From Omnitrophica WOR_2 bacterium RBG_13_41_10 (GTDB lineage: Bacteria; Omnitrophota; Gorgyraeia; Gygaellales; Profunditerraquicolaceae), in contig MHGH01000001.1 in assembly GCA_001805465.1 (NCBI GenBank), positions 2,452 to 35,003 of the forward strand: a stretch of DNA of 32,552 nucleotides, read 5' to 3'. This document shows positions 257 to 24,059 of the stretch, piece after piece; the stretch's first letter is position 1, and the number at the start of each line of letters is the position of its first letter. Under the pieces are notes generated by a model. That model did no database searches and had not been told where the DNA came from. It was given only the letters and a program-made list of their open reading frames with translations. Made by a program: the position numbers and the translations under genes.

Positions 257-589
257 ATGACAATAGTAAATATAATAGGAGAAGTAAGAAAGCTCGTAGA
301 TTTAGTAAGCTATCAGAATAGTGCTATCGTAAGCAAAGAGATTATTAAGAACGAAAAAGGAACGGTTACGCTGTTTGCATTTGATAAAGGACAGGGATTG
401 AGTGAGCATACCGCTCCTTTTGATGCATTAGTATATAATTTTGACGGTAAAGCAGAAGTAATTATCGAAGGAAAGCCGCATCTTTTAGGAGAGGGAGAGA
501 TTATAATTATGCCAGCAAATAAGCCGCATGCCTTAAAAGCGATAGAGCGTTTTAAGATGCTTTTAGTGATGGTGAGGGAGAAAGGATAA
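257..589 (+). CDS. Small cupin-domain protein
   Basis: 110 aa with cupin-type motifs (GLSEHTAPFDALVYNFDGKAEVIIEGKPHLLGEGEIIIMPANKPHALKA). Confidence 0.85.
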   Translation: MTIVNIIGEVRKLVDLVSYQNSAIVSKEIIKNEKGTVTLFAFDKGQGLSEHTAPFDALVYNFDGKAEVIIEGKPHLLGEGEIIIMPANKPHALKAIERFKMLLVMVREKG

Positions 590-590
590 A

Positions 591-2828
591 ATGAAGCGTA
601 TTTTATTGTTTATTTTGCCGATTTTAATCATTATTGCCGTGGCATTCACTATATTCGGAATCGTACAGGTCCGCTATGAAGAAGAAAAACTAATGGATGA
701 CCTGAAAAGGAAGGCCAGGGCTGTGGCGGAAAGCGTTGAATTGTCGGCAAGATATTCGCTTATTAACAATGACCTTAAGTCAGCCAAGCGCCTTGTAGAA
801 AGCTTCCAAAAGAGGGAGAGGATGCAGGGTTGCGTAATCTACGATAAGGAAGGCCTGATTTTAGCTATTACTGAACGAATCTCTGATTGGGGGCAGAAAG
901 AAAAGACATATATCAAAGAAATCCTAAATACCCAAAGTGCCAGGGGTGCAATTGAAATATTTGGGGATTATTCGGTATATAGCTACACCTTGCCGGTATT
1001 AGATGATGAGAATAATATTTTGGGCGTAGTAGAAGTCATATATGATACCTCTTATCTCTTCACTACCTTAGCCGATTTATGGAGGAGGATAAGCACAACA
1101 TTAATTATCTTGATATCGCTCATAGCAATCACTGCTGTTTTAATCCAAAGGCAGATTTTTATCCTTCCTGTGCGCCGGCTTACGCAATGGTTTAGCCATT
1201 TTCAAAGGGGCGAGATAGACGAAAGCCATCCTATAAAAGAAAAAGGAGAACTCGGCAAGCTTGCCAGTGAAGTAGAGCAGGTAGCATTAAGTTTACGGGT
1301 TGCCCGAAGGACAATTTCTGATGAAGCTTCTGTACGGTTGCAGAAAGAAGAAGTATGGACGGAATCCAAGTTAAGGGATTTAGTTCGTGCTAAACTAGGG
1401 GATAACGCATTATTTGTAGTTTCGAACCGTGAACCGTATATGCATGTTCTAGATGAATCTACCGGCGTGACTAAATGCATTAGGCCCGCAAGCGGCGTGG
1501 TTACCGCTATACATCCTGTTTTGTGCGCCTGCGGAGGAACATGGATTGCCCATGGCAGCGGCAATGCGGATAAGAAATTTGTTAATTCGAAAGATAAATT
1601 AGGCGTACCTCCTAAAGATAATCGCTATATTCTTAAAAGAGCGTGGTTAACGAAAGAGGAAGAAGATGGATATTATTACGGATTTGCTAACGAAGGCCTA
1701 TGGCCGTTATGTCACAATACACATACGCGGCCGATCTTTCGAGAGTCAGATTGGCAGATGTATAAAAAAGTGAATCAGAAGTTTGCCGATACTCTCCTTG
1801 AAGAATTACCGGCTAAGCCTCCGTTTATCTTTATTCAGGATTACCACTTTACATTACTTGCTAAGATGATTAAAGAGAAGCGACCCGATGCAACCATTGC
1901 CTTGTTTTGGCATATCCCTTGGCCCAATCCGGAAAATTTCTCCATATGTCCGTATCGTCAGGAAATTCTCGATGGAATGTTGGGCTGTGATTTAATCGGA
2001 TTTCATGTTCAGAATCATTGCAATAATTTCTTAGATACTGCCAATAGGCTTCTTGAGTCGCGCGTTGATACTGAGAAATTTAGCATCATCCGTTTCGATA
2101 AAGAGACATTTGTCAGGGCTTTTCCTATAAGCGTTGACGGCCATATAAGCGAAGGCAGTTTTAAGGTTGAACCGATCAGGGAGATAGAGAAGCTAAAGAA
2201 AGAATACGATCTAAAAGATAAAATAGTGGGATTAGGCGTAGATAGAATTGATTACACCAAGGGCATAATCGAGAGGGTATTGGCCGTCGACAGGTTTTTA
2301 GAAAAATATCCCGAGTACAAGAAAAAATTTGTCTTTATTCAGCTTGCCGCTCCCAGCCGAACGCATATAAAGCGCTATCATGACCTCATAGGCGAGATAG
2401 ATGAATTGGTGGAAAAGAAAAACTGGAAATATCTTGACGGTGATTGGAAACCGATAATATATCTAAAGCGCCATTTTTCTCAAGACGAGATAGAGCCTTA
2501 TTATATGCTGGCTGATCTGTGTATTGTCAGTTCTCTGCATGACGGTATGAATCTGGTTGCCAAAGAGTATGTGGCAGCCAAGAAAGATTTATCCGGAAGC
2601 CTGATTTTAAGCCAATTTACCGGTGCGGCGCGAGAATTAACCGATGCCATTCAGATTAATCCATATTCCATAGAAGAATTTGCTGATAGTATTAAGTTGG
2701 CTCTAGAAATGCCTTCGGAAGAGAAGGAAAAGCGCATGGAGAATATGCGTAAAATTATCAGCGAAAATAATGTCTATCGCTGGGCAGGTAATATCATTAC
2801 AGAACTTACGGCATTAAAGAAAGTTTAG
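591..2828 (+). CDS. Membrane sensor (TM - extracytoplasmic domain - TM - HAMP-like) fused to trehalose-6-phosphate synthase (GT20)
   Basis: N-terminal TM (LLFILPILIIIAVAFTIFGIV), about 140 aa extracytoplasmic domain, second TM (TTLIILISLIAITAVLI), HAMP-like segment, then GT20 motifs (VVSNREPY, CGGTWIAHGSG, IQDYHFTLLAKMI, FWHIPWPNPENF, VDRIDYTKGI, LHDGMNLVAKEYVA). Confidence 0.9.
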   Translation: MKRILLFILPILIIIAVAFTIFGIVQVRYEEEKLMDDLKRKARAVAESVELSARYSLINNDLKSAKRLVESFQKRERMQGCVIYDKEGLILAITERISDWGQKEKTYIKEILNTQSARGAIEIFGDYSVYSYTLPVLDDENNILGVVEVIYDTSYLFTTLADLWRRISTTLIILISLIAITAVLIQRQIFILPVRRLTQWFSHFQRGEIDESHPIKEKGELGKLASEVEQVALSLRVARRTISDEASVRLQKEEVWTESKLRDLVRAKLGDNALFVVSNREPYMHVLDESTGVTKCIRPASGVVTAIHPVLCACGGTWIAHGSGNADKKFVNSKDKLGVPPKDNRYILKRAWLTKEEEDGYYYGFANEGLWPLCHNTHTRPIFRESDWQMYKKVNQKFADTLLEELPAKPPFIFIQDYHFTLLAKMIKEKRPDATIALFWHIPWPNPENFSICPYRQEILDGMLGCDLIGFHVQNHCNNFLDTANRLLESRVDTEKFSIIRFDKETFVRAFPISVDGHISEGSFKVEPIREIEKLKKEYDLKDKIVGLGVDRIDYTKGIIERVLAVDRFLEKYPEYKKKFVFIQLAAPSRTHIKRYHDLIGEIDELVEKKNWKYLDGDWKPIIYLKRHFSQDEIEPYYMLADLCIVSSLHDGMNLVAKEYVAAKKDLSGSLILSQFTGAARELTDAIQINPYSIEEFADSIKLALEMPSEEKEKRMENMRKIISENNVYRWAGNIITELTALKKV

Positions 2829-3626
2829 ATGGAATATTTATTTTCTCATCGGAATAAATTAAAAGACATATTAACTGACAAGTTTGTGTTTCTTTTTTTG
2901 GACTATGATGGAACTTTAACCCCAATTGCGCAAACCCCCGATAAGGCGGTAATTTCTAAAGAAAAAAAAGATTTATTGGGCAGGCTATCTAACAATCCTA
3001 ACTGTAAGGTAGCTATTATCAGTGGTAGGTCGCTTAGCGATATAAAGGCCCTTGTAGGGATTAAAAGTATTATTTATGCCGGTAATCATGGCCTGGAAAT
3101 AGAAGGCCCAAAGATTAAATTTGAGAGCAGGCTTTCCCCGAGATTCAAGTCTATTATCAGGGATATATATAAAGATGCGGTTGGCAGGTTTTCCAAAATT
3201 AAGGGGGTTTTAATAGAAAACAAGGGATTGACCTTAAGCGTCCATTATCGCCTGGTAGATAAACAGGATATTCAAGAGTTCTTAAAGATATTAGCTGAAA
3301 TAACTGATCCTTATATTGTCCGCAATAAAATAAAGATTAATTCCGGTAAAAAAGTTTATGAGATAAGGCCTCCCGTAATGTGGGATAAAGGTAAAATTGT
3401 CTTGTGGCTGTTGTCTAGGCAACAATTTTTGTTAGAAAATAATAATATTTTGCCTATTTATATCGGAGATGATACTACCGATGAAGATGCCTTTAAGGCG
3501 CTAAAGAAGAAAGGCCTGACAATATTTGTGGGAGAAAAGGCCAGTCCAGGAGCCCGATATTATTTAAAAAATACGGAGGAGGTAACCGAACTCTTAAGGC
3601 TAATTTTTGATCTTAAGCATAAGTAA
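2829..3626 (+). CDS. otsB: Trehalose-6-phosphate phosphatase (HAD superfamily)
   Basis: HAD motif DYDGTLTPI, IISGR, NHGLEIEG, GDDTTDEDAFKAL; adjacent to the T6P synthase. Confidence 0.93.
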   Translation: MEYLFSHRNKLKDILTDKFVFLFLDYDGTLTPIAQTPDKAVISKEKKDLLGRLSNNPNCKVAIISGRSLSDIKALVGIKSIIYAGNHGLEIEGPKIKFESRLSPRFKSIIRDIYKDAVGRFSKIKGVLIENKGLTLSVHYRLVDKQDIQEFLKILAEITDPYIVRNKIKINSGKKVYEIRPPVMWDKGKIVLWLLSRQQFLLENNNILPIYIGDDTTDEDAFKALKKKGLTIFVGEKASPGARYYLKNTEEVTELLRLIFDLKHK

Positions 3627-3629
3627 GAT

Positions 3630-4301
3630 ATGGCAGAATTAATAAAGGCTAAAGAGCCATTTAGATTTTATACAAGATTGCACCTGACTGAGCTAACCGG
3701 TTTAAGGGCCTCTACCTTAAGCCAATTAGTAGGACTGATAAAAGAGGCTTCCGGTTCTTGCATTTACCACCATACCCATAGATTTCTGCAACAGCATCAG
3801 TATCTTTCTCCTGAGCCGCCGAATGACTTTGCCTATTGGGTAGCAGAGATTCTTGGCGAAAAGGAATTGGGGGAGAAACTCGCCAGCATTGATACCATTC
3901 AATACTCAACTATTCACGGCCTTCGCGAAGCGATTGTTACCACCATGGATGATTATCTAAAGAACAATGCTCTGGCAAAACTAAGATTTGCTGGCGAAGG
4001 AGCGGAATTCCATTTTATGAAATCAGTCAGTTTCGTAATTCCCACAAATTACGTTGTCTCTGATTTAAAAAATTTTAAAGATACATTGGGTAATATAACT
4101 ATTGATTCAATATACTTCCATATTTTTGAAGCACGATTGCGCCTGGAAAGAAAAACCAATGACTTTTCTAATTGGATAGAAAATTCCATAGGCGATAAAG
4201 AACTGGCAGAGGAGATTTCAAGGCTCGATCCTTATGCCTATACCTTAGAGGAATTAAGGAGAGTAATAATTAAGCTTATAGAAAAAAGGCTTTCCGTTTA
4301 A
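3630..4301 (+). CDS. DUF5752-like protein of unknown function
   Basis: 223 aa with two repeat-like halves (PFRFYTRLHLTELTGL...FAYWVAEILGEKELGEKLASID and FHFMKSVSFVIPTNYVVSDL...FSNWIENSIGDKELAEEISRLDPYAYTLEELR); lies between otsB and a TreT-like gene. Family name is from memory. Confidence 0.65.
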   Translation: MAELIKAKEPFRFYTRLHLTELTGLRASTLSQLVGLIKEASGSCIYHHTHRFLQQHQYLSPEPPNDFAYWVAEILGEKELGEKLASIDTIQYSTIHGLREAIVTTMDDYLKNNALAKLRFAGEGAEFHFMKSVSFVIPTNYVVSDLKNFKDTLGNITIDSIYFHIFEARLRLERKTNDFSNWIENSIGDKELAEEISRLDPYAYTLEELRRVIIKLIEKRLSV

Positions 4302-4302
4302 T

Positions 4303-5514
4303 ATGAAAAGAATAGATGAATATATTCCCATAGTGGGTAGTTCCGTTATTGACGATTTAAAATTACTTGGAGAAAAACTTAAAAATAAAGTTATTCAACA
4401 TATCAATTCTACGCCCGTAGGCGGCGGTGTTGCCGAAATATTAAACCGCATGGTTGGGCTGTTAAGAGAATTAGGCGTAGATACAAGATGGGACGTCATA
4501 AAAGGCGGAGAGCAATTTTTTGGAGTGACAAAAAAGTTTCACAACGCATTGCACGGCAGGGCCAAAGAGATAACCCAGAGGGATTTTGAAATATTCATGG
4601 AGACCAGCCAGCAAAATTTAGAAAATGTCAATACCTACGGAGATATTGTTTTTGTCCATGACCCGCAGCCAATAGCTCTGATAAAAAAGAAAGCCGCTAA
4701 CAAATGGCTTTGGCGTTGCCATGTTGACGTATCTAATCCTAATGAGAAAGTTTGGGGATTTCTTATGGATTTTATCGTTCAGTATGATTCTGTAGTTTTT
4801 TCTGCTCCGGCTTTCTCCCGGAAGTTACCCGTCAGGCAATTTTTAATTTCTCCATCCATTGACCCTTTAAGCGACAAAAACAAAGAATTACCCCAAGAAA
4901 CAATAAATTCGGTCTTAAGAAAATACGGTATTAAAAAAGACAAAGCAATCATCACCCAAATATCCCGTTTTGACCGCTTAAAAGACCCCATAGGCGTAAT
5001 TGAAGCATATTTGCAGGTAAAAAAATATATCAATTGCCAGCTGATCTTGGCCGGTGGTACCGCCGAGGATGATCCAGAAGGACTCCAAGTGCTTGAGGAA
5101 GTTAAAGAGAAAGCTAAGAATGACCGCGATATTCATATTTTGCTTTTACCACACAACGATATAGAAGTGAATGCACTGCAAAGGGTTTCCGATGTCATTG
5201 TTCAGAAATCTCTTAAGGAGGGATTTGGTTTAACGGTCGCCGAAGCTCTATGGAAAGCAAAACCCGTTGTAGCTTCTAATGTCGGCGGTATCCCCTTACA
5301 GATAAAACACAAATATTCCGGTTTATTGTGCCGTTCAGTTGAAGGCGCTGCTTTTGCGATAAAGCAGTTGCTTAATAGCCCGGAATACGCCCAAAAATTA
5401 GGAGAAAATGGCCGGGAGCATATTAGAAACAATTTCCTGCTTACCAGGCACCTAAGGGATTATATGTTGTTATTTCTTTCGCTTTATCATCCTGAAGATA
5501 TAGTGTATTTGTAA
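4303..5514 (+). CDS. GT4-family trehalose synthase (TreT-like) glycosyltransferase
   Basis: HINSTPVGGGVAEILNRMVGLLRELGVDTRWDVI, HDPQPIALI, WRCHVDVS, QISRFDRLKDPIGVIEAY, LKEGFGLTVAEALWKAKPVVASNVGGIPLQI. Confidence 0.85.
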   Translation: MKRIDEYIPIVGSSVIDDLKLLGEKLKNKVIQHINSTPVGGGVAEILNRMVGLLRELGVDTRWDVIKGGEQFFGVTKKFHNALHGRAKEITQRDFEIFMETSQQNLENVNTYGDIVFVHDPQPIALIKKKAANKWLWRCHVDVSNPNEKVWGFLMDFIVQYDSVVFSAPAFSRKLPVRQFLISPSIDPLSDKNKELPQETINSVLRKYGIKKDKAIITQISRFDRLKDPIGVIEAYLQVKKYINCQLILAGGTAEDDPEGLQVLEEVKEKAKNDRDIHILLLPHNDIEVNALQRVSDVIVQKSLKEGFGLTVAEALWKAKPVVASNVGGIPLQIKHKYSGLLCRSVEGAAFAIKQLLNSPEYAQKLGENGREHIRNNFLLTRHLRDYMLLFLSLYHPEDIVYL

Positions 5515-5679: not shown

Positions 5680-6144
5680 ATGCCCGTAGTTTCTCTTAGC
5701 CATTTTGCCGGTAAAATGGGCGAGATTATGCCCATAATGATGAAAGAATTTACCCGGTGCATGGCCGTTGAATTGCATAAAGCAAAGGTTACCCTGCCGC
5801 AAATAATGATTTTACATTTTTTGGAGATGGAGCAGGAAGCCAAGATGAAAGACCTGGCGCGTTTTATGGGTGTTACCATGGCAGCCATGACCGGAATTAT
5901 CGAGCGCCTGGTAAAAAGCGGCCACTGTACAAGAATCTACGACCCCCAAGACCGCCGGATTATTAAAATAAGATTAACCGCTAAAGGCGATAATTTAGTA
6001 AAAAATATCAATGAAGGTAAACACCGGATGATCATAAAAATATTTGGTAAAATCTCTGAGACTGACCGGCAGGATTATTTACGTATCCTATTGCAAATAA
6101 AGGAGATTTTACTCAGAGAAAATTCTCATTTAGCACAATGCTGA
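5680..6144 (+). CDS. MarR-family transcriptional regulator
   Basis: 154 aa winged-helix pattern (LPQIMILHFLEMEQEAKMKDLARFMGVTMAAMTGIIERLVKSGHCTRIYDPQDRRIIKIRLTAKG). Confidence 0.92.
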   Translation: MPVVSLSHFAGKMGEIMPIMMKEFTRCMAVELHKAKVTLPQIMILHFLEMEQEAKMKDLARFMGVTMAAMTGIIERLVKSGHCTRIYDPQDRRIIKIRLTAKGDNLVKNINEGKHRMIIKIFGKISETDRQDYLRILLQIKEILLRENSHLAQC

Positions 6145-6154
6145 TTAAGGCAAA

Positions 6155-7711
6155 ATGTTTAAAAGGGCGTTAATTTTTTGTTTAAATATCGGGCTGATCT
6201 TTAGCCTTGTTTCTTCTGCCACAGCAAAAGATAAGCCTGGCAAGCCAGAAGAAAGGGCAAGGGAAATAGATAAAGCCCTTTTTATGGCCTCGGGCACTGT
6301 GGACAAGATTTTAAAAATTGGCTTAGTGGATTGTATGCTTTATGCCTTAAAACAAAATTCAGAAATTTTGGTTAAGCGCATCGAACCAAAATTAAAAGAA
6401 GACGAGGTGAAGATTGCTAAGGCCGATTTTGAGCCGACCTTTAATGCTGAATATACGGTACAAGATACAAACGAGGTTTCATCCAGCACTTTGCAGGGAG
6501 CGGATATTTTTAATACCCAAGACATGAATCTCAACGCCGATGTTTCGGGTAAGTTCACCAGCGGCACAGAATATAAGATGGGAATCCTTAATCAGAGATA
6601 TAAAAGTGATTCCACATACCAGGTCTTTAATCCTTATTATGCCATAGAGCCAAAAATTACTATCACCCAGCCGCTTTTTAGAGGCTTTGGCACAATGGTA
6701 AATAAAGCGGATATTATAGTCGCCCAGAATAATAGATTACAATCCGGCGCTTCTTTTAAGGATACGGTTATGGATACTATCAGCAAAGCAAAAATAGCTT
6801 ATTACAACTATATTTTTTATCTTGAAAGCTATGCTATTGCTAAGTTATCTTTAGAACGCGCCCAGCATTTATTGGAGATAAATAAAGCCAGATATCAAAA
6901 AGGGCTTATCAGTTCCGTTGATTTATTAGAAACAGAAGCAGCTGCAGCAGAGAGAGAAAAAACAGTGCTGACGGCTGAGGCCCAGGTCAAGAGAGCGGAG
7001 GATGACCTTAAACTCATTACCAATTTAGTTGATGACCCCCAAGTTTGGAACGCCAAGATTGAACTGATAGATAAGCCGGCATTTATTGTTGAAGAGGTAG
7101 ATTTACTGCAAAGCCTAAAAGCAGCCTTTGAATACAGGCCGGATTACTACTCTGCGAAGATAGATTTGAAAAGCCGGGATATCAAAATCGTAACTGCCCA
7201 GAACGCCTTGCTTCCTACCGTTGACCTAGTGGCTAGTTTTGGCTTAAACGGATTAGGAAAAGACTATCAGAGTGCCCTCCAAAAAGTTAACCCCGACTAT
7301 ACAGACTGGGGCATCGGGGTTAAATTCAGCCTTCCTTGGGGCAGTGGAGATCGGGCAAAATACGACCAGAGGCAATTAGAGAAAGCCCAGGCCTTACTTG
7401 TATTTAAAAGATTAGAGCAGAATATTATTCTGGAAATAAGGGATAAGGTGAGAAATGCCAAAACACAAAAACAGCAGGTAGATGTGGCTAAGCTTTCCAA
7501 GGAAAAAGAGGCCCAGAACTACGAAGCGCAGAAAGAGCGTTACGCCGCAGGCCAGGTTTCTACTCATGATATGCTGGATTATCAAGATAAATTATCACAG
7601 GCCGAGCTTGACTATGTCAAGGCGTTAATTGATTATAATATTGCCTTAATTAATCTGGATAAATCTCAAGGGATAACCTTAGCCAAGAACAATATTAAAC
7701 TGGAGGAGTGA
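6155..7711 (+). CDS. TolC-family outer membrane efflux protein
   Basis: Signal peptide; paired OEP-like repeats (DCMLYALKQNSEILVKRIEPKLKEDEVKIAKADFEPTFNAEYT; ARYQKGLISSVDLLETEAAAAEREKTVLTAEAQVKRAEDDLK; RYAAGQVSTHDMLDYQDKLSQAELDYVKALIDYNIALINLDKSQG). Confidence 0.92.
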   Translation: MFKRALIFCLNIGLIFSLVSSATAKDKPGKPEERAREIDKALFMASGTVDKILKIGLVDCMLYALKQNSEILVKRIEPKLKEDEVKIAKADFEPTFNAEYTVQDTNEVSSSTLQGADIFNTQDMNLNADVSGKFTSGTEYKMGILNQRYKSDSTYQVFNPYYAIEPKITITQPLFRGFGTMVNKADIIVAQNNRLQSGASFKDTVMDTISKAKIAYYNYIFYLESYAIAKLSLERAQHLLEINKARYQKGLISSVDLLETEAAAAEREKTVLTAEAQVKRAEDDLKLITNLVDDPQVWNAKIELIDKPAFIVEEVDLLQSLKAAFEYRPDYYSAKIDLKSRDIKIVTAQNALLPTVDLVASFGLNGLGKDYQSALQKVNPDYTDWGIGVKFSLPWGSGDRAKYDQRQLEKAQALLVFKRLEQNIILEIRDKVRNAKTQKQQVDVAKLSKEKEAQNYEAQKERYAAGQVSTHDMLDYQDKLSQAELDYVKALIDYNIALINLDKSQGITLAKNNIKLEE

Positions 7712-8592
7712 TGGCGAGTTCACGCAAGATGATTATAGCAGTATTTATGGTATTGACTGTTTTAGGCTGCCAAAAAGAGGAAAAAAGGCAGGCCGCAAAT
7801 GCAATAATCCCGGTAGAGGTTTCTAAGGTTGAATTTAAAGACCTTGAGGAAACGCTTGATTATGTAGGTAATATCAGGGCGCAGGAAGAGGCAGTAATTT
7901 ATCCTAAGGTCAACGGAAAAATTATGGAAAAAGTCAAAGAGGACGGAAGCCTGGTCAATAAAGGCGAAACAGTTGCCTATATCGACCGCGATGAAGTCGG
8001 TTTTAAATTTGAAAAGGCCCCTGTAGAAAGCCCGCTTAGCGGAATTATCGGCAGGGTTTATGTGGATATCGGAGAGAATGTCACCACGCAAACGCCCATT
8101 GCCTTGGTGGTTGATATGAGGCGCGTAGAAATAGATTTAGACATCCCGGAAAAATATTATTCAAAAATTGCCTTGGATCAAAAAGCAAGGGTTAAGGTAG
8201 ATGCTTATCTGGATGAAGAATTCAGCGGCCGGGTAACCAAGATTAGCCCGGTGGTAGATTTGTCTACGCGCGCTGCGCCCATTGAAATTACCATAGATAA
8301 TCCGCAAGGTAAGCTGCGCTCGGGAATGTTTAGTAAGGTAAGCCTGGTGCTCGCCGAGCATAAAAACGTGCCGGTGATTTTAAAAGAAGCAATTATGGGG
8401 AAAGTTCCGAATTTATACGTCTATGTTATAGAGAATCAAAAGGCGGTTTTAAGAAAAATTACCTTAGGTATCCGCCAGGGCCCGTATTATGAAGTAAGGG
8501 ATGGCCTTGGCCAAGGGGATCCGGTTGTGATTATGGGGCAGCAGAGACTTTATGATGGTGCAGAGGTAATTACGGAGGAAGAGAAAGAATGA
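7708..8592 (+). CDS. RND efflux periplasmic adaptor (MFP) lipoprotein, apparently lacking the alpha-hairpin
   Basis: Lipobox-like FMVLTVLGCQ; lipoyl halves (GNIRAQEEAVIYPKVNGKIMEKVKEDGSLVNKGETVAYID / APVESPLSGIIGRVYVDIGENVTTQTPIALVVD) followed by beta-barrel and membrane-proximal domains. Overlaps the tolC stop. Confidence 0.9.
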   Translation: MMASSRKMIIAVFMVLTVLGCQKEEKRQAANAIIPVEVSKVEFKDLEETLDYVGNIRAQEEAVIYPKVNGKIMEKVKEDGSLVNKGETVAYIDRDEVGFKFEKAPVESPLSGIIGRVYVDIGENVTTQTPIALVVDMRRVEIDLDIPEKYYSKIALDQKARVKVDAYLDEEFSGRVTKISPVVDLSTRAAPIEITIDNPQGKLRSGMFSKVSLVLAEHKNVPVILKEAIMGKVPNLYVYVIENQKAVLRKITLGIRQGPYYEVRDGLGQGDPVVIMGQQRLYDGAEVITEEEKE

Positions 8593-11500
8593 ATTTTCCT
8601 GAATTCGGAGTTAAAAGGCCGGTAACGAATTTAATGATTTTTTCCGCAATTCTGGTGCTGGCTTTTTACAGCCTTACCAGGATAGGCATAGATAGCATGC
8701 CTGAAATTGAGCCGCCTTCTATCAGTGTAATCTCCAGCTACCCCGGCGCAAGCCCGGAAGACGTAGAGACTAAAGTTACTGAAGTGCTGGAGAACCAGCT
8801 TGCCACAACCCCGGGGTTAGAGAAAATCACCTCTACTTCTTCAGAAGGTTCTTCTAGGATCACCCTTAAATTCATTTGGGGGACAAATTTGGATGAGGCA
8901 TCTAATGATATCCGCGACCGCATTGATTTAGCTAAACGGCTATTGCCGGATATCCCGGATGAAATGGATAACCCCATCATCTTTAAATTTAACACCGCTA
9001 ATATCCCGATAATATTTTTTGGTTTTACGGCAACACAATCGTATCCCGAGCTTTATGATTTAATTGATAAAAGAGTAGGCGATGCCTTGCGCCAGCTGCC
9101 CGGGGTGGGGACAGTGCAAATTCAAGGCGGCGGCTTAGAGCGCCAGATTAATATTTGGGTAGACAAGACTCGACTCCAAGGGTATGGTTTCTCCATACTT
9201 GATATTCAAAATGCCTTAAGACAGGAAAACATTACCCAGCCCGTGGGAGATTTGAAAACCGGCATGACAGATTATCTCCTGCGGCTTCCCGGTGAATTCG
9301 CTACTCCCGAAGAAATAAACTTGGTAATTTTAGGCAGGCGCGAAGGAAAGCTTATTTATTTAAAAGATGCAGCGCGCGTGGAAGACAGTTTTAAAGAAGT
9401 CACAAGCATGGTGCGCGTTGACAAACAGCGGGGCCTGATGATGATGGCGCAGAAGCAAAGCGGCACCAATACCGTAGAAGTTGCGCAAAGGATAAAAAAG
9501 CGCATGGAAGAGCTAAAAAAGACGCTTCCGGCAGATGTAAAGGTGGTTACTATTTTTGATACTTCCAAAGATATCATTACCTCGCTTAATTCATTAAAAT
9601 CTTCAGTGTGGCTGGCAATATTTTTAGTAATTTTAGTGGTCTGGTTTTTCCTGCGCCAGTTCGCCCCGAGTATGATTGTGGCCTTGACCATACCGTTTTC
9701 GCTTTTGATCAGCTTTATTTATCTTTTTTTAAACGGCAAAACTATTAATACCATCAGCCTTTCTTCCATAGCCATTGCCTCAGGCATGGTTGTTGATAAT
9801 GCCATTGTTATCGTAGACAATGTCTACCGCCATTTCGAACGGGGCCAGCGGCCGCAGGAGGCAGCAATTTTTGGCACCTCAGAAATGTTTTTAGCTATCG
9901 CCGCCTCTACTGTTACAACGGTCGTGGTTTTTCTGCCGATGTTATTTATTCCGGGAGTTGTCGGCGTTATCTTCGGAGAATTAGCAGTGATTATTATTGT
10001 CACGCTTCTGGCATCGCTTTTTACTGCCGCAACTTTTAGCCCGATGCTTTGTTCAAAATGGATGCATTCTAATAACAGCACAATTAAAGAAACACATAAG
10101 GCATTCATTAAATTCTATGATTTTTCTGAGAAAATGTTTAAGGGCTGGGAGGATTTTTATGCCAGACAGCTTGGCTGGTCTCTGGGGCATAAGAAAATCA
10201 TTATTATCGGTTTTAGCTTGGCGTTTATCTTTAGTTTAACCCTGACGCGTTTTGTCGGCAATGAATTTATTCCTGAAGAAGATACCGGGGACCTGCGCAT
10301 AAATATCAGCCTTGCTGTTGGGATGAGGCTTGAAGAAAGCGATAGAGTCTCCAAAAGAATTGAAGGCTTGCTTGCTCAGGATATCCCTGAAGCAGAATAT
10401 TATTATGTGAGAACCGGTTCAGTCAGGGGTTTGGGCAGGGCCTTTGGCGGCGCGCAGGGCTCGCATACTATCGCTGCCGGAGCAAAACTGGTAGCTAAGA
10501 CCAAGAGAAAACGTTCGGTTGTGGAAGTCGGGCAAATTATCAGAAACAAGATAAAAAATATTCCCGGGGTAATCAAGGCCGATGTCTCCACAGGTAACCC
10601 CATAGGCCGCCTGATTACCGGAGGGGGAGGCAAGGCAATTCAAATTGAAATTATCGGGCACTCATTTGAAGAAACTGATGCCCTGGCAGAAAAAATAAAA
10701 GGTATTTTAGAACAGATCCCCGGAACAGTAGATGCTTCTATCTCGCGCGAGTTTAACCGCCCGGAATTAAGGATTGATGTTGACCGGGAAAAAACAGCGG
10801 CGTTGGGCCTGGACATGGGCACTATCTCCAACACCCTTCGGGCTTTTATTCAGGGGGTAACTGCGACAAAATACCGCGAAAAAGGAGAAACTTACGATAT
10901 TTATGTCAGGCTTGAGGAGGCTTCGCGCACAAAACTAGAGGATATTGAAAACCTTTCTATCGTAGCCCCCCTGCCGCAGGAAAAAACTTCTTTTATTGCC
11001 TTGGCAGATTCAGAGGCGCTGAAAGGAATTTCCAGAGGCCATATTCAATTGTCTAACATCGCCAAAATTTCCGAAACCCTAGGGCCCCAGGATATTGACC
11101 GCAAAAACCGAGAAAGGGTAGTGCAGGTAGAATGTAATGCCTACAGGAGGTCTTCGGGAAAGATCATCGAGGACCTCAATAAAGAATTGGGTAAATTAAC
11201 CCTGCCTAGCGATGTCATGATTAACATCGGAGGCGAGGCAGAAGAACAAGGAAAGGCATTTAAAGACCTGACGATGCTGTTATTGCTGGGTATCTGTTTG
11301 GTTTATATGGTAATGGCCGCGCAATTTGAATCGCTCTTAGACCCTTTTATCGTTATGTTCGCCATTCCTTTTACCTTTATCGGCGTAATTTTAGGCTTTG
11401 TCCTGACCAATACAACCCTGAGCATTATTACGTTTTTAGGGATTATTATGTTGATGGGCATCGTGGTTAATAACGCTATTGTTTTGGTAAGCTATATTCA

Positions 11501-11771
11501 GATCCTGCGCGCCCGGGGTTTATCTATGTATGAAGCAGTAACTACAGCGGGAAAAGAAAGATTAAGGCCGGTATTAATGACCACAATCACTACTCTAGTC
11601 GGGCTCCTGCCTTTGGCAATGTCCCGGGGCGAAGGTTCTGAGGTCTGGCAGCCATTGGGTATTACCATGATCGGGGGGCTAACAATATCTACATTAATCA
11701 CCATGCTTTTTGTGCCTACACTTTATGCTATCTTCCACAGAAAAGCAGAGCTAACCGGAGGTGAGAAATAA
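8589..11771 (+). CDS. RND efflux pump inner-membrane transporter (AcrB/HAE1-type)
   Basis: 1060 aa; FGVKRPVTNLMIFSAILVLAFYSLTRIGIDSMPEIEPPSISVISSYPGASPEDVE; LSSIAIASGMVVDNAIVIVDNV; two symmetric halves with TM bundles. Confidence 0.97.
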   Translation: MNFPEFGVKRPVTNLMIFSAILVLAFYSLTRIGIDSMPEIEPPSISVISSYPGASPEDVETKVTEVLENQLATTPGLEKITSTSSEGSSRITLKFIWGTNLDEASNDIRDRIDLAKRLLPDIPDEMDNPIIFKFNTANIPIIFFGFTATQSYPELYDLIDKRVGDALRQLPGVGTVQIQGGGLERQINIWVDKTRLQGYGFSILDIQNALRQENITQPVGDLKTGMTDYLLRLPGEFATPEEINLVILGRREGKLIYLKDAARVEDSFKEVTSMVRVDKQRGLMMMAQKQSGTNTVEVAQRIKKRMEELKKTLPADVKVVTIFDTSKDIITSLNSLKSSVWLAIFLVILVVWFFLRQFAPSMIVALTIPFSLLISFIYLFLNGKTINTISLSSIAIASGMVVDNAIVIVDNVYRHFERGQRPQEAAIFGTSEMFLAIAASTVTTVVVFLPMLFIPGVVGVIFGELAVIIIVTLLASLFTAATFSPMLCSKWMHSNNSTIKETHKAFIKFYDFSEKMFKGWEDFYARQLGWSLGHKKIIIIGFSLAFIFSLTLTRFVGNEFIPEEDTGDLRINISLAVGMRLEESDRVSKRIEGLLAQDIPEAEYYYVRTGSVRGLGRAFGGAQGSHTIAAGAKLVAKTKRKRSVVEVGQIIRNKIKNIPGVIKADVSTGNPIGRLITGGGGKAIQIEIIGHSFEETDALAEKIKGILEQIPGTVDASISREFNRPELRIDVDREKTAALGLDMGTISNTLRAFIQGVTATKYREKGETYDIYVRLEEASRTKLEDIENLSIVAPLPQEKTSFIALADSEALKGISRGHIQLSNIAKISETLGPQDIDRKNRERVVQVECNAYRRSSGKIIEDLNKELGKLTLPSDVMINIGGEAEEQGKAFKDLTMLLLLGICLVYMVMAAQFESLLDPFIVMFAIPFTFIGVILGFVLTNTTLSIITFLGIIMLMGIVVNNAIVLVSYIQILRARGLSMYEAVTTAGKERLRPVLMTTITTLVGLLPLAMSRGEGSEVWQPLGITMIGGLTISTLITMLFVPTLYAIFHRKAELTGGEK

Positions 11772-12931: not shown

Positions 12932-14158
12932 ATGATGAAGAAGTTTCTTTTTGTATTCCTTCTAGTATTATCTTTATTCATGGTACAGGAAAGTATAAGC
13001 CACTTTCCCATACCACTGCGAAAATCGCTGAAAGTCATCGCCGAAGGCAATTTTCTTGATATAGCCGAAGCGGCAACGCCCAAACTCATTATATTTTATT
13101 CGCCAAGCTGCCATAAATGCGCCCAGGTCAAAAACGAAGTAATCCCCCAGATACACGAAAAATTTAAGGACAAAATATCCATAGAATACCGCGATACCAG
13201 CGACATAGAAAATTATAAGTTATTATTGAGCCTGCGGGAAAAATATGCGCCTAATTTTGATGATACCGTGCCGGTATTTTACTTTAATGGAAATCTTTTA
13301 AGCAGCAAAGAGCCGTTAAGAGAAAATTTAGAGGCCTTAATTAATAATTCGCCAGGCACGACATCGCATGCACAAGAAGAGCCGTATGCAATAGATTTAA
13401 TCAGCCGTTTTAAAGGTTTTCCTCCGGCGGCTATTGCCAGCGCCGGACTGATAGACGGAATTAATCCTTGCGCTTTCACGGTGATAGTATTTTTTATTTC
13501 CTTTTTAGTCTTGCAGGGCTATAGAAAAAGAGAGTTAATTGTTACGGGCCTGTCTTTTATTTTTATTGTTTTTTTAACCTATATCTTAATAGGAATAGGA
13601 ATATTCTCTTTTCTTTATCGCTTAAGCAGTTTTTGGTTAGTGGCCAGGATATTTAATATCTCTATCGGGATTTTTTGTATTATCTTAGGAATTTTAGCGC
13701 TTTATGATTTCTTTAAGTTTAGGAAAACCGGCTCTAGCGCAGGCCTGGCTTTACAATTGCCGCAGGCAGTAAAAAATCAGATACATAAACTTATAGGTAA
13801 ACATTATAGAAAATCTAAAGATAAAACGCAGAAGCTGCCTGTCTATAGTTTGGTTTTCACTGCCTTGATTACCGGGTTTCTGGTGTCAATTTTAGAGGCA
13901 GTCTGTACCGGGCAGGTTTATCTTCCGACGATAACCTTTATTTTAAAAACCGCTCCCTTAAAGATGGAGGCTTTTGGATACCTTATACTTTATAACCTGA
14001 TGTTTATTTTTCCTTTGGCTATAATATTTTTGTTTGCCCTTTGGGGTGTTACCTCCGAACAATTTTCCAGGGTTTTAAAGAAGCACCTTTTATCCATCAA
14101 GATAATTATGGCTATACTATTTTTTGCTTTGGGCATATTCTTAATCCGGAGGGGATAA
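12932..14158 (+). CDS. Thioredoxin-like (CHKC) domain fused to CcdA/DsbD-type transmembrane domain
   Basis: Signal peptide; LIIFYSPSCHKCAQVKNEVIPQI; GLIDGINPCAFTVIVFFISFLVLQGY; ILEAVCTGQVYLPTITFIL; multiple TM helices. Confidence 0.88.
   Translation: MMKKFLFVFLLVLSLFMVQESISHFPIPLRKSLKVIAEGNFLDIAEAATPKLIIFYSPSCHKCAQVKNEVIPQIHEKFKDKISIEYRDTSDIENYKLLLSLREKYAPNFDDTVPVFYFNGNLLSSKEPLRENLEALINNSPGTTSHAQEEPYAIDLISRFKGFPPAAIASAGLIDGINPCAFTVIVFFISFLVLQGYRKRELIVTGLSFIFIVFLTYILIGIGIFSFLYRLSSFWLVARIFNISIGIFCIILGILALYDFFKFRKTGSSAGLALQLPQAVKNQIHKLIGKHYRKSKDKTQKLPVYSLVFTALITGFLVSILEAVCTGQVYLPTITFILKTAPLKMEAFGYLILYNLMFIFPLAIIFLFALWGVTSEQFSRVLKKHLLSIKIIMAILFFALGIFLIRRG
12980..13059 (+). repeat. 80-bp two-hairpin repeat, copy 1 (in-frame inside the thioredoxin-CcdA CDS)
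   Basis: 75/80 ungapped identity with 21550-21629 by direct reading; encodes MVQESISHFPIPLRKSLKVIAEGNFL. Confidence 0.93.
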
Positions 14159-19840: not shown

Positions 19841-20335
19841 ATGTTATGCGATATTTGCGCTAAAAATCCGGCAACCGTGCATTTGACAGAGATTATCGAC
19901 GATCAGATGAATGAGCTGCATCTTTGTGAAGAGTGCGCGCATCAAAAGAGCGCGCAGATGGAGCAGCAGTTTGGTTTAAGCGATCTTTTGGCGGGCCTGA
20001 CGGAATTTGAGAAGCCCAATGCCAAGAAAGAAGTGGCAGTATCTCTTAAATGCCCAAACTGCGGCTTAGGTTACACAGACTTTAAAAAAATAGGGCGCTT
20101 AGGCTGCAGCGAATGTTACACCACTTTTAAGAGGTACCTGGCCCCTTTATTAAAGAAAATACACGGTTCTAATTTGCACGTCGGTAAGTCTCCGTTTAAG
20201 GTTGCTGTAAGTACTGATAAAAAAATGGATTTAGAGAGCCTGCGTAGTGAATTACAAAGAGCGGTTGAAATGGAAGAGTTTGAAGAGGCAGCAAGGATTC
20301 GCGATCAGATTAGAAGATTGGAAAAGAAGGAGTAA
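19841..20335 (+). CDS. mcsA: McsA-like zinc-finger/UVR protein (activator of protein arginine kinase)
   Basis: CDICAKNPATVHLTEI...LHLCEECA; CPNCGLGYTDFKKIGRLGCSECY; C-terminal UVR motif; followed by mcsB and clpC. Confidence 0.92.
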   Translation: MLCDICAKNPATVHLTEIIDDQMNELHLCEECAHQKSAQMEQQFGLSDLLAGLTEFEKPNAKKEVAVSLKCPNCGLGYTDFKKIGRLGCSECYTTFKRYLAPLLKKIHGSNLHVGKSPFKVAVSTDKKMDLESLRSELQRAVEMEEFEEAARIRDQIRRLEKKE

Positions 20336-20344
20336 AATTTTAAT

Positions 20345-21394
20345 ATGCAACTGGCTGATTTAGTAAACCGTACCAGCGAATGGCTTAAAAGCACAGGGCC
20401 GAACTCTGATATTGTTATCTCCAGCCGTATCCGCCTGGCCAGGAACTTAGACAAGGTGCCTTTTCCGCATTGGGCAAATAAAAAGCAGAGTGAAAATGTG
20501 CTCCTGAGCGTTGAGGAAGCCGTAGCTAAAACCGCTGAACTAAAAAATACTACCACCTTTAGATTAATGGACCTTGATAGCATAGATAAGCAATTCTTGA
20601 TTGAGCGGCACATGATGTCTTTAGAGCTTGCCCAGAAGTCCGACCATAAAGCCGTAGTAATCGATGAAGAAGAGACCATCGCGATTATGATTAATGAAGA
20701 AGACCATATCCGGATGCAGGTAATGCAATCGGGCCTGAATCTTTTTGAGGCCTGGAATATTATTAATAAGATTGATAGCGCTCTTTCTAAAGAATTATCT
20801 TTTGCCTTTCTAGCAGATTTAGGGTATCTTACTGCCTGCCCGACCAATGCCGGCACCGGGATGCGCGGTTCGGTGATGCTGCATTTACCGGCATTAGTGA
20901 TGACAAACCAGATCAACCGTGTCTTGGCAGCTATTGCCAAGTTAAGTTTTAACACCCGGGGGCTTTACGGAGAAGGCACGCAGGCCCACGGAAATTTTTT
21001 CCAGGTTTCCAACCAGGTTTCCTTAGGCCACAGCGAGGAAGAGATTATTGAAAACATAAACGGCCTGATCCGCCAGATTGTAGAACAAGAAAACCAGGCC
21101 AGGCAAGCTTTATTATCAGAAAATAGATTATTGCTTGAAGACAGGGTTAACCGCAGCTTTGCTTTATTAAAGAGTGCCCATATCATCTCCAGCCAGGAAA
21201 CCATAGATTTATTATCCATGGTAAGATTAGGATGCGATTTGGAAATGATTAAAAATATAGGCCGCAAGACATTAAATGAATTATTTATCCTGATACAGCC
21301 GGCGCATCTGCAAAAGATTGAAAATAAGAAACTTTCCAGTAACGAAAGGGATTTTAAAAGAGCGGAGTTAATCAGAAAAAAATTAGCCATATAA
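20345..21394 (+). CDS. mcsB: Protein arginine kinase McsB (ATP:guanido phosphotransferase)
   Basis: DIVISSRIRLARNLDKVPFPHWA; NEEDHIRMQVMQSG; GYLTACPTNAGTGMRGSVMLHLP; GLYGEGTQAHGNFFQVSNQVSLG. Confidence 0.95.
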   Translation: MQLADLVNRTSEWLKSTGPNSDIVISSRIRLARNLDKVPFPHWANKKQSENVLLSVEEAVAKTAELKNTTTFRLMDLDSIDKQFLIERHMMSLELAQKSDHKAVVIDEEETIAIMINEEDHIRMQVMQSGLNLFEAWNIINKIDSALSKELSFAFLADLGYLTACPTNAGTGMRGSVMLHLPALVMTNQINRVLAAIAKLSFNTRGLYGEGTQAHGNFFQVSNQVSLGHSEEEIIENINGLIRQIVEQENQARQALLSENRLLLEDRVNRSFALLKSAHIISSQETIDLLSMVRLGCDLEMIKNIGRKTLNELFILIQPAHLQKIENKKLSSNERDFKRAELIRKKLAI

Positions 21395-21404
21395 GTGAGG
21401 CCAC

Positions 21405-21535
21405 AACTTATGGAATAAAGTGAACATAAGTTGTACGGCCGAACTTATCCCCCCTGCTTTCTTGCGAAAGCAAGAAGGGGGGATTAATTCGTAGACGCTT
21501 CGCTATAATTTATGTTCGCTTAAGCTCCATAAGTT
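21405..21535 (+). repeat. Nested inverted-repeat (palindromic) element in the mcsB-clpC gap
   Basis: Outer arms AACTTATGGA (21405-21414)/TCCATAAGTT (21526-21535), second arms GAACATAA/TTATGTTC (21422-21429/21510-21517), central CCCCCC-TGCT-TTCTTGC-GAAA-GCAAGAA-GGGGGG hairpin (21449-21482). Confidence 0.85.
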
Positions 21536-21549
21536 ATCTCAGTCATTTT

Positions 21550-21629
21550 ATGGTACAGGAAAGCATAAAACACTTTCCCATACCACTGCGAAAATCGCTG
21601 AAAGTCATCGCCGAAGACGATTTTCTTGA
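21550..21629 (+). repeat. 80-bp two-hairpin repeat, copy 2 (clpC leader)
   Basis: 75/80 ungapped identity with 12980-13059; ends 9 nt before the clpC ATG. Confidence 0.93.
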
Positions 21630-21638
21630 GGAGGAAAA

Positions 21639-24059
21639 ATGTTCAACAGGTTTACCGAGCGTGCCAGAAAAGTAATTATCTTAGCCAAAGAAGAAGCTCG
21701 CCGTTTTAATCATGATTATATCGGAACCGAGCATATATTATTGGGGCTGATCCGCGAAGGAGAAGGGGTAGCTGCTGCGGTATTAGAGAAGATGGGTATA
21801 TCGTTAGAGAATATTCGCCTAGAAATCGAAAAATTAGTTCAACCCGGGCCTACCACTCAGATTATCGGCGATATTCCTTTTACCCCTCGCGCAAAAAAAG
21901 CCCTGGAATTAGCGGCGGAAGAAGCGCGCTCTTTAGGCCATAATTATATCGGCACCGAACATCTTTTATTAGGCCTGATTAAAGAAGGAGAGGGAGTAGC
22001 CTCGCAGGTATTATTGAATTTAGGGCTGGATTTAGCCAGGGTGAGGAATGAGGTATTGGAGGTTTTAGGTTCCGGTGTTCCGGGTTTTGGCCAAAACCAA
22101 CAGCAGGTAAAAACCAAAACCCCGGCCTTAGATGCCTTTGGCCGTGATTTAACCGCATTGGCCAATGAAAATCAGCTTGACCCGGTAATCGGAAGGCACG
22201 GGGAAATAGAGAGGGTAATCCAGACCTTAAGCAGGCGCACCAAGAATAATCCGGTTCTTTTGGGTGAAGCGGGTGTTGGCAAAACCGCTATTGTCGAAGG
22301 CCTGGCTCAGGCAATTATAGCAAATAATGTTCCGGAGGTATTAAGAAACAAGCGCATTGTTGTTTTAGATTTGGCCCTGATGGTTGCCGGGACAAAATAC
22401 CGCGGCCAATTTGAAGAGAGAATAAAAGCAGTGATGGAAGAGATAAAACGTTCTCGTGATGTAATTATTTTTATTGATGAATTGCATACCTTAGTGGGCG
22501 CAGGGGCTGCGGAAGGGGCAATTGATGCCTCTAATATTTTAAAGCCGGCACTCTCACGCGGAGAGATGCAGTGTATAGGCGCCACTACCCTGGATGAATA
22601 CAGGAAGCATATTGAAAAGGATGCGGCATTAGAGCGCCGTTTCCAGACCATTATGGTAGAGCCTCCGTCGGTTAATGAGACCATCGATATACTCAAAGGC
22701 CTGCGCGATAAATATGAAGCCCATCATCGCGTGGTGTTTCGCGATGAGGCGCTAGAGGCAGCGGCAAAATTATCAGACCGCTATATTACAGGCAGGTACC
22801 TTCCGGATAAAGCCATTGATTTGATGGATGAAGCCGGCTCACGCGCCAGGCTTAATGTTTTGGTTGTTCCGCCGGACATTAAGAAGCTCGAAGAAAAAGT
22901 AGAGGCCTTAAGAAAAGAAAAAGAGGCCTATATTAAATCGCAGGACTTTGAGAAGGCTGCTAGCCTAAGGGATCAAGAAAGGCAGGTACGCCAGGAATTA
23001 GAAGAACTGAATAAACAATGGGCAGTGGCTAAAGACAAGATGCGGCCGGAAGTCGGCGAAGAAGAGATCGCAAAAATCGTATCGCAATGGACCGGCATTC
23101 CTATCTTTAGATTAGAGGAGGCAGAGAGCGAAAAGTTATTGAAGATAGAGGAAGGGTTGCATAAGCGCGTAGTGGGCCAAGAGGAAGCTATCTTGGCTAT
23201 TGCCCATGCTGTCAGGCGCTCGCGCGCAGGAATCAAGGACCCTAAAAGGCCAATAGGCTCCTTTATATTTTTAGGGCCGACAGGAGTAGGTAAATCTCTT
23301 CTTGCCCGGGCATTGGCAGAATTTATGTTCGGGGATGAGGATGCGCTTTTGCAGTTAGATATGTCGGAGTATATGGAAAAATTTAATGTTTCCCGCCTTA
23401 TCGGTGCTCCGCCGGGATATGTGGGTTATGAAGAAGGAGGACAGCTTACCGAGAGAGTCAGGCGCCGGCCTTATTCGGTGATTCTCTTAGATGAAATCGA
23501 AAAAGCCCACCCCGATGTTTTTAATATTCTCTTACAGGTATTTGAAGAGGGCCGCCTTACCGATAGCTTCGGCAGAAAAGTAGATTTTAGAAATACGGTA
23601 ATAATTATGACCTCTAATGTCGGCGCAGAATTAATCCGTAAAACCGGCTCCTTAGGGTTTAAGACCCAGAAGGAAGAAGTTAGCTATCAAGAGATGAAGG
23701 AAAAGTTATTGGAAGAAGTAAAGAGGACTTTTAAGCCGGAGTTCTTAAACCGCATAGATGACACCATAGTTTTTAGGCCGCTCAATAAAGAAGATTTAAT
23801 CAAGATTATTGATATAGAGATAGGTTTTGTAGCAGAGAGGTTAAAAGAACATAACATCTCTTTAGAGGTCAACCAAGAGGCCAAAGAGTTTCTGGTAGAA
23901 AAAGGTTTTGACCCCATATTTGGAGCCAGGCCCTTAAAAAGGACTATTCAAAGATTCTTAGAAGATTCCTTGGCTTCCGAAATAATAGCTAAGAATTTTA
24001 AAGATGGCTCTCGAGTCAAAGTAATACGTAAGAACCTGGAGCTTGCTTTTGAACAATGA
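21639..24059 (+). CDS. clpC: ClpC-type AAA+ unfoldase
   Basis: Tandem Clp-N repeats ([26 protein letters not shown] / [26 protein letters not shown]), two Walker A motifs ([16 protein letters not shown]), UVR middle segment. Confidence 0.97.

Follow-up and report, generated by a model that had tools for sequence, protein, structure and literature searches.

A Cache-HAMP sensor joined to a trehalose-6-phosphate synthase-like enzyme in Omnitrophota: a candidate one-component receptor-enzyme in an osmotic/trehalose operon

The 32,552-nucleotide stretch of Omnitrophota DNA analysed here (hereafter the window) encodes, in the operon described below, a protein in which a membrane-spanning sensor is joined directly to a GT20 enzyme with the features of a trehalose-6-phosphate (T6P) synthase. 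The gene (591-2828, plus strand) is one uninterrupted open reading frame of 745 aa with an ATG start and a plausible ribosome-binding site, and its parts follow one another in the order TM1, Cache domain, TM2, HAMP domain, helical linker and complete GT20 T6P synthase. Pfam, family models, AlphaFold, Foldseek and hydropathy bear out this anatomy, which had been put forward in a preliminary description of the DNA, and the sensor-GT20 fusion is confirmed as a real observation. Sensor, HAMP and enzyme being carried by a single chain, we interpret the product as a one-component transmembrane receptor-enzyme within an osmotic/trehalose operon, in which the sensor would gate the enzyme; we place the probability of this reading at roughly 55%. 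The gene, its parts and its neighbours are as follows.

257..589, plus strand: cupin protein gene, immediately adjoining the fusion gene at its 5' end (Pfam)
591..2828, plus strand: candidate Cache-HAMP-GT20 receptor-enzyme, the whole open reading frame (745 aa; full-length relatives)
603..665, plus strand: TM1, residues ~5-25 (hydropathy; AlphaFold helix 2-58)
678..1046, plus strand: extracytoplasmic Cache domain, residues ~30-152 (sub-cut-off sCache_3_2 match; family support; fold)
1083..1160, plus strand: TM2, residues ~165-190 (hydropathy; AlphaFold helix 154-205)
1161..1310, plus strand: HAMP domain, residues ~191-240, with P193 and L197 in AS1 and with AS2 from ~220 (sub-cut-off HAMP score; family models; fold)
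1311..1409, plus strand: helical linker, residues 241-273 (AlphaFold; comparison with soluble OtsA)
1410..2810, plus strand: predicted GT20 T6P synthase domain, residues 274-740 (Pfam; fold; substrate residues)
2829..3626, plus strand: otsB, T6P phosphatase, in the same operon directly 3' of the fusion gene (T6PP model over its cut-off; synteny)
3630..4301, plus strand: DUF5752 protein, conserved in the operon (235.3 bits; synteny)
4303..5514, plus strand: treT-like trehalose synthase of family GT4 (TreT_GT1, 183.6 bits; synteny)

Hydropathy analysis identified only two hydrophobic segments in the reading frame (windows 1-30 and 165-194), with ~130-140 extracytoplasmic residues between them. 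Scored against Pfam, the query on its own fell below threshold for both sensory domains, sCache_3_2 reaching 23.6 bits over residues 30-149 (cut-off 28.4) and HAMP 17.9 bits over residues 192-236 (cut-off 25; 22.2 in the genome search, again under 25). Because these signals are weak in the query alone, the assignments were tested on its relatives: among 46 full-length relatives, 23 matched sCache_3_2, 15 matched dCache_1 and nine matched HAMP, each at E <= 0.01. The NCBIfam model for the WalK kinase covers residues 5-245 of the query (E 2e-12 with the whole protein, 1e-13 with the N-terminal part), a match that takes in the TM-Cache-TM-HAMP stretch, HAMP included, and a comparison of 22 N-terminal parts with kinase models gave matches to WalK in 21, to MtrB in 15 and to BaeS in seven. 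The HAMP and Cache profile similarity on which the preliminary description depended was thus recovered in the relatives and through the WalK model, but not at the Pfam cut-offs in the query alone.

An AlphaFold model computed with the family alignment reached a mean pLDDT of 83 overall and of 82 in the N-terminal part. It places a Cache fold between the two TM helices, in agreement with Foldseek and hydropathy; TM2 and AS1 run on as a single helix (154-205), which a break separates from the AS2 helix (220-250/254). Two amphipathic helices follow directly after the last TM segment, the first of them with the AS1 proline; P193 and L197 are invariant across relatives, and near-invariant residues are found across phyla. 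Foldseek comparison of the N-terminal part with the PDB ranked a WalK model at the top (256 aligned columns, E 1e-12), followed by sensor domains of WalK, KinD, CitA and DcuS. A profile search of solved structures with the sensor part gave weak matches only, including the Af1503 HAMP (E 0.18-0.19), and its top match, MJ0922, was taken as chance; profile-profile comparison of the sensor alignment with a HAMP protein from the same genome produced no useful alignment. We consider the Cache assignment well supported, and likewise the HAMP assignment, for which position, motif, fold and family models speak but the Pfam score does not. As modelled, the Cache fold is as similar to small-ligand sensors as to osmosensors. 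The input half of the protein (residues 5-245) resembles that of the sensor histidine kinase WalK/YycG in its succession of TM, extracytoplasmic Cache, TM and HAMP, but the kinase output of WalK/YycG is replaced in the query by a GT20 enzyme. No Pfam match to the dimerisation/phosphoacceptor or ATPase domains of kinases was found in the query, whose residues 274-740 are GT20, and a histidine kinase remnant was ruled out on the absence of kinase domains in Pfam and NCBIfam.

The C-terminal part contains a complete Glyco_transf_20 domain (Pfam; residues 274-740, 411.7 bits, E 5e-123) whose predicted fold matches that of OtsA/Tps1, the best 50 Foldseek matches to the full model all being T6P synthases with a TM-score of ~0.9 over the solved chains. 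Residues of Escherichia coli OtsA binding glucose-6-phosphate and UDP-glucose have been listed (PMC1769515), and these were mapped onto the query via the M. thermoresistibile OtsA together with motif spacing. All 11 published substrate residues are kept: the five listed for glucose-6-phosphate (R280, W318, Y362, W371 and R590, with R280 corresponding to the acceptor-binding R9 of E. coli OtsA) and those for UDP-glucose (G302, D417, H441, R552, D651 and E659). The same eleven positions are invariant in 78 membrane-sensor sequences, apart from a single ambiguous letter at Y362 and another at W371. Relative to other OtsA, the clade is marked by an SNREP[YF]xH motif and, in most members, by SG in place of GG. 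The query scores 419.6 with the OtsA equivalog model TIGR02400, under its cut-off of 564.85, and 308.9 bits with the glucosylglycerol-phosphate synthase model, below its OtsA model score; we accordingly file its sequence as that of an OtsA-like GT20 member, not of an OtsA equivalog. Because of the sub-cut-off score we infer the acceptor, an assignment strengthened by the adjoining otsB, which exceeds its own cut-off. With eleven substrate residues, the OtsA/Tps1 fold and a neighbouring otsB in its favour, the T6P synthase chemistry predicted for the GT20 domain is well supported, as the preliminary description had supposed.

OtsA is normally a soluble stand-alone enzyme or is fused to OtsB. 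The query shares with OtsA/Tps1 the complete GT20 fold, all published substrate residues and an adjoining otsB, but differs in being membrane-bound, in carrying an N-terminal receptor, in belonging to a clade of its own and in scoring under the equivalog cut-off. OtsA-OtsB fusions, present in the same phyla as the query family, likewise combine GT20 with an extra domain, in their case a C-terminal phosphatase with no TM seen. Almost all such fusions belong to a different GT20 branch, and the otsB of the window is a gene of its own; classification of the query among them was therefore rejected.

A scan of genome contigs identified 58 loci, nearly all from Omnitrophota and most of them aligning with the query from end to end at 66-84% identity; single loci were titled Elusimicrobia, Margulisiibacteriota and Spirochaetes. 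Full-length matches from whole-genome searches, which covered Omnitrophota, the Elusimicrobiota group, Margulisbacteria and Spirochaetota (other phyla through plasmids only), numbered 105 for Omnitrophota (103 of 386 genomes), 48 for the Elusimicrobiota group (45 of 249 genomes), seven for Margulisbacteria (75 genomes searched; one match cut by a contig end) and two for Spirochaetota (297 genomes searched), as tallied from the listed rows with phylum names taken from the locus record titles. Plasmid searches for full-length relatives returned none covering 80% of the query, with matches to the GT20 part only, the best in Aminobacter. The fusion is a conserved multi-phylum family, not a one-off.

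Individual loci depart from the common pattern. A fusion 81% identical to the query, in a MAG titled Spirochaetes RBG_16_49_21 (L003, 6001-8235), lacks adjoining otsB, DUF5752 and treT genes, and reflects either transfer or mis-binning. At another locus (L028, 5938-8235), the fusion gene is split by an in-frame stop that falls after the TM2 part and ahead of the HAMP part. A third (L109, 1974-6164, minus strand) contains an open frame of 1397 aa that begins ~640 residues ahead of the usual fusion start; the upstream part has no known domain over the cut-off, and it was left as an open frame rather than called an extra N-terminal fusion.

In a quick tree of 92 GT20 sequences, made without bootstraps, the membrane forms all group together in a single branch (SH-aLRT 98), to which the nearest groups are soluble OtsA of 490-515 aa from the same phyla. 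The lone 'soluble' entry within the membrane branch (L114) begins at the edge of its contig, its N-terminus missing from view. Soluble OtsA of the clade begin at about residue 250-256 of the query and, since residues from ~254 on are common to them, the fusion junction can be placed at ~241-254. TM1 and TM2 lie at a nearly constant distance from the enzyme in every close member and in most of the distant ones. Some Elusimicrobiota forms have lost the Cache domain but not TM2, the linker or the HAMP stretch, and one relative (L091) has a single TM with HAMP degenerate or missing. Cache-less relatives that keep TM2-HAMP show that the periplasmic sensor is dispensable for membrane binding, and because some relatives without Cache stay at the membrane, a periplasmic signal would not be needed everywhere. 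For three close pairs, among the few unsaturated at silent sites, dN/dS was 0.05-0.11 in the sensor, 0-0.11 in HAMP and linker and 0.03-0.07 in GT20, values indicating that sensor and HAMP are under purifying selection. The Aminobacter aminovorans plasmid pAA02 encodes a GT20 of this clade that has one TM and neither Cache nor recognisable HAMP (L071, 4785-6602); its gene adjoins GT4 and amylo-alpha-1,6-glucosidase genes.

The same-strand order sensor-GT20, otsB, DUF5752 and treT is found at 41-42 loci, the window counted. DUF5752 separates otsB from treT in the window and at ~40 related loci, those of Elusimicrobiota and Margulisbacteria among them; a literature search returned no paper naming it. 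The upstream cupin gene, present in this window only, was discarded as a conserved partner. A gene for an MscS-family mechanosensitive channel stands directly upstream of sensor-GT20 at 11 of 48 loci and of a soluble same-clade OtsA at four of 19 (L131, L135, L139 and L147), the MscS-bearing loci being related to each other and not independent events. It neighbours sensor-GT20 at L009 (4876-5958), L007, L013, L016-L018, L020, L022, L026, L029, L030 and L083, at the last of these on the downstream side, and at L009 genes for a CBS protein and a Na+/H+ exchanger are inserted between sensor-GT20 and otsB. The window and its incomplete genome yielded no MscS gene. The MscS and Na+/H+ exchanger neighbours point, as circumstantial evidence, to osmotic adaptation. 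Trehalose synthesis genes in Omnitrophota, with trehalose as a compatible solute, were reported in a 2021 study (PMC8542988), whose passages on Omnitrophota trehalose make no mention of the sensor fusion.

In the proposed gated receptor-enzyme, an active-looking OtsA is joined to an extracytoplasmic Cache domain and to a TM2-HAMP relay of the type that usually drives a histidine kinase. A cytoplasmic GT20 domain and an extracytoplasmic Cache domain fit both hydropathy and substrate location. The protein would probably work as a HAMP-mediated dimer, the HAMP helices of which might be shifted by a ligand, or by a membrane or osmotic change, at the Cache-TM part. In the AlphaFold model the AS2-linker helix ends ~30 residues ahead of R280, and is followed by a short linker helix (258-268) and by the first strand (274-278), with R280 two residues further on. 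Through the AS2-linker helix, HAMP motion could make the N-terminal active-site loop at R280 more or less ordered, and in this way turn T6P synthesis up or down. OtsB would then convert T6P to trehalose in the cytoplasm, and TreT would provide a second trehalose route from nucleotide-glucose and glucose. The input is most likely the osmotic or envelope state. The preliminary description, which had suggested direct control of T6P synthesis by periplasmic or osmotic signals with no response regulator in between, is supported in part.

The main rival to gating is plain membrane tethering, whereby the N-terminal part would hold the enzyme against the inner membrane, close to a channel, an exporter or OtsB/TreT. 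The Cache domain would then be a leftover or a docking site that transfers no signal. Such an anchor would suit both the Cache-less relatives, in which TM2 is kept, and the Aminobacter plasmid relative with its one TM and no recognisable HAMP. The constraint on Cache and HAMP seen in dN/dS, the near-invariant residues across phyla and the nearly fixed TM-to-enzyme spacing argue against it, however, as does the HAMP stretch retained in most Cache-less forms, which a plain anchor would find superfluous; on balance we judge tethering alone less likely than gating. Considerably less probable is that the receptor is real but that its GT20 domain glucosylates another acceptor, such as glycerol phosphate, to yield a different compatible solute. 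The distance from the OtsA equivalog cut-off (419.6 vs 564.85) and the clade's own SNREP[YF]xH and SG-for-GG marks could be read in this way, against which stand the retention of five out of five glucose-6-phosphate residues, the otsB gene that adjoins in most loci and is above its T6PP cut-off here, and the lower score of the glucosylglycerol-phosphate synthase model (308.9 bits). Mis-assembly, a frameshift or the chance joining of a kinase input domain to a GT20 gene might be suspected from the fragmented assembly of the source genome and from the stop in L028, but can be excluded for practical purposes by the full-length relatives in many independent genomes: well over 100 genomes, from several phyla, preserve the entire frame free of stops at 39-84% identity.

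Gating by the sensor, our preferred reading, would set the protein beside established uses of HAMP. HAMP relays drive kinases, chemoreceptors, cyclases and phosphatases, and HAMP-linked one-component enzymes include diguanylate cyclases, adenylate cyclases and PP2C phosphatases. These enzymes likewise carry sensor, HAMP and enzyme in one chain, but they make or remove signals, whereas the output of the query would make a metabolite, the precursor of a compatible solute. Such single-chain coupling is in itself known. Keyword searches of the open-access literature found no paper on HAMP joined with T6P synthase, the matches being unrelated by title, and the HAMP-GT20 architecture may already be listed in databases such as InterPro. 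We give even odds to the broader proposal that Omnitrophota, Elusimicrobiota and Margulisbacteria possess a widespread class of proteins in which an extracytoplasmic Cache-HAMP relay directly gates a metabolic glycosyltransferase, so that a single protein switches compatible-solute synthesis across the membrane without phosphorelay or transcription. If true, no route from an external signal to osmoprotection would be shorter than HAMP wired to the enzyme for a bulk protective solute, T6P formation would offer a simple assay for the control of an enzyme by HAMP motion, and phyla known almost only from metagenomes would gain a concrete, testable trait.

Other genes of the window include a 408-aa open reading frame (12932-14158) with no Pfam match at E <= 0.001, and, at 5680-11771, a MarR regulator followed by TolC-, HlyD- and AcrB-family genes that together form, by Pfam, a complete-looking tripartite efflux operon. 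Further downstream (19841-24059), genes for a UVR-motif protein (McsA-like), an ATP:guanido phosphotransferase (McsB-like) and a ClpC-like ATPase stand in series and may form a set for arginine-phosphorylation proteolysis in this Omnitrophota genome.
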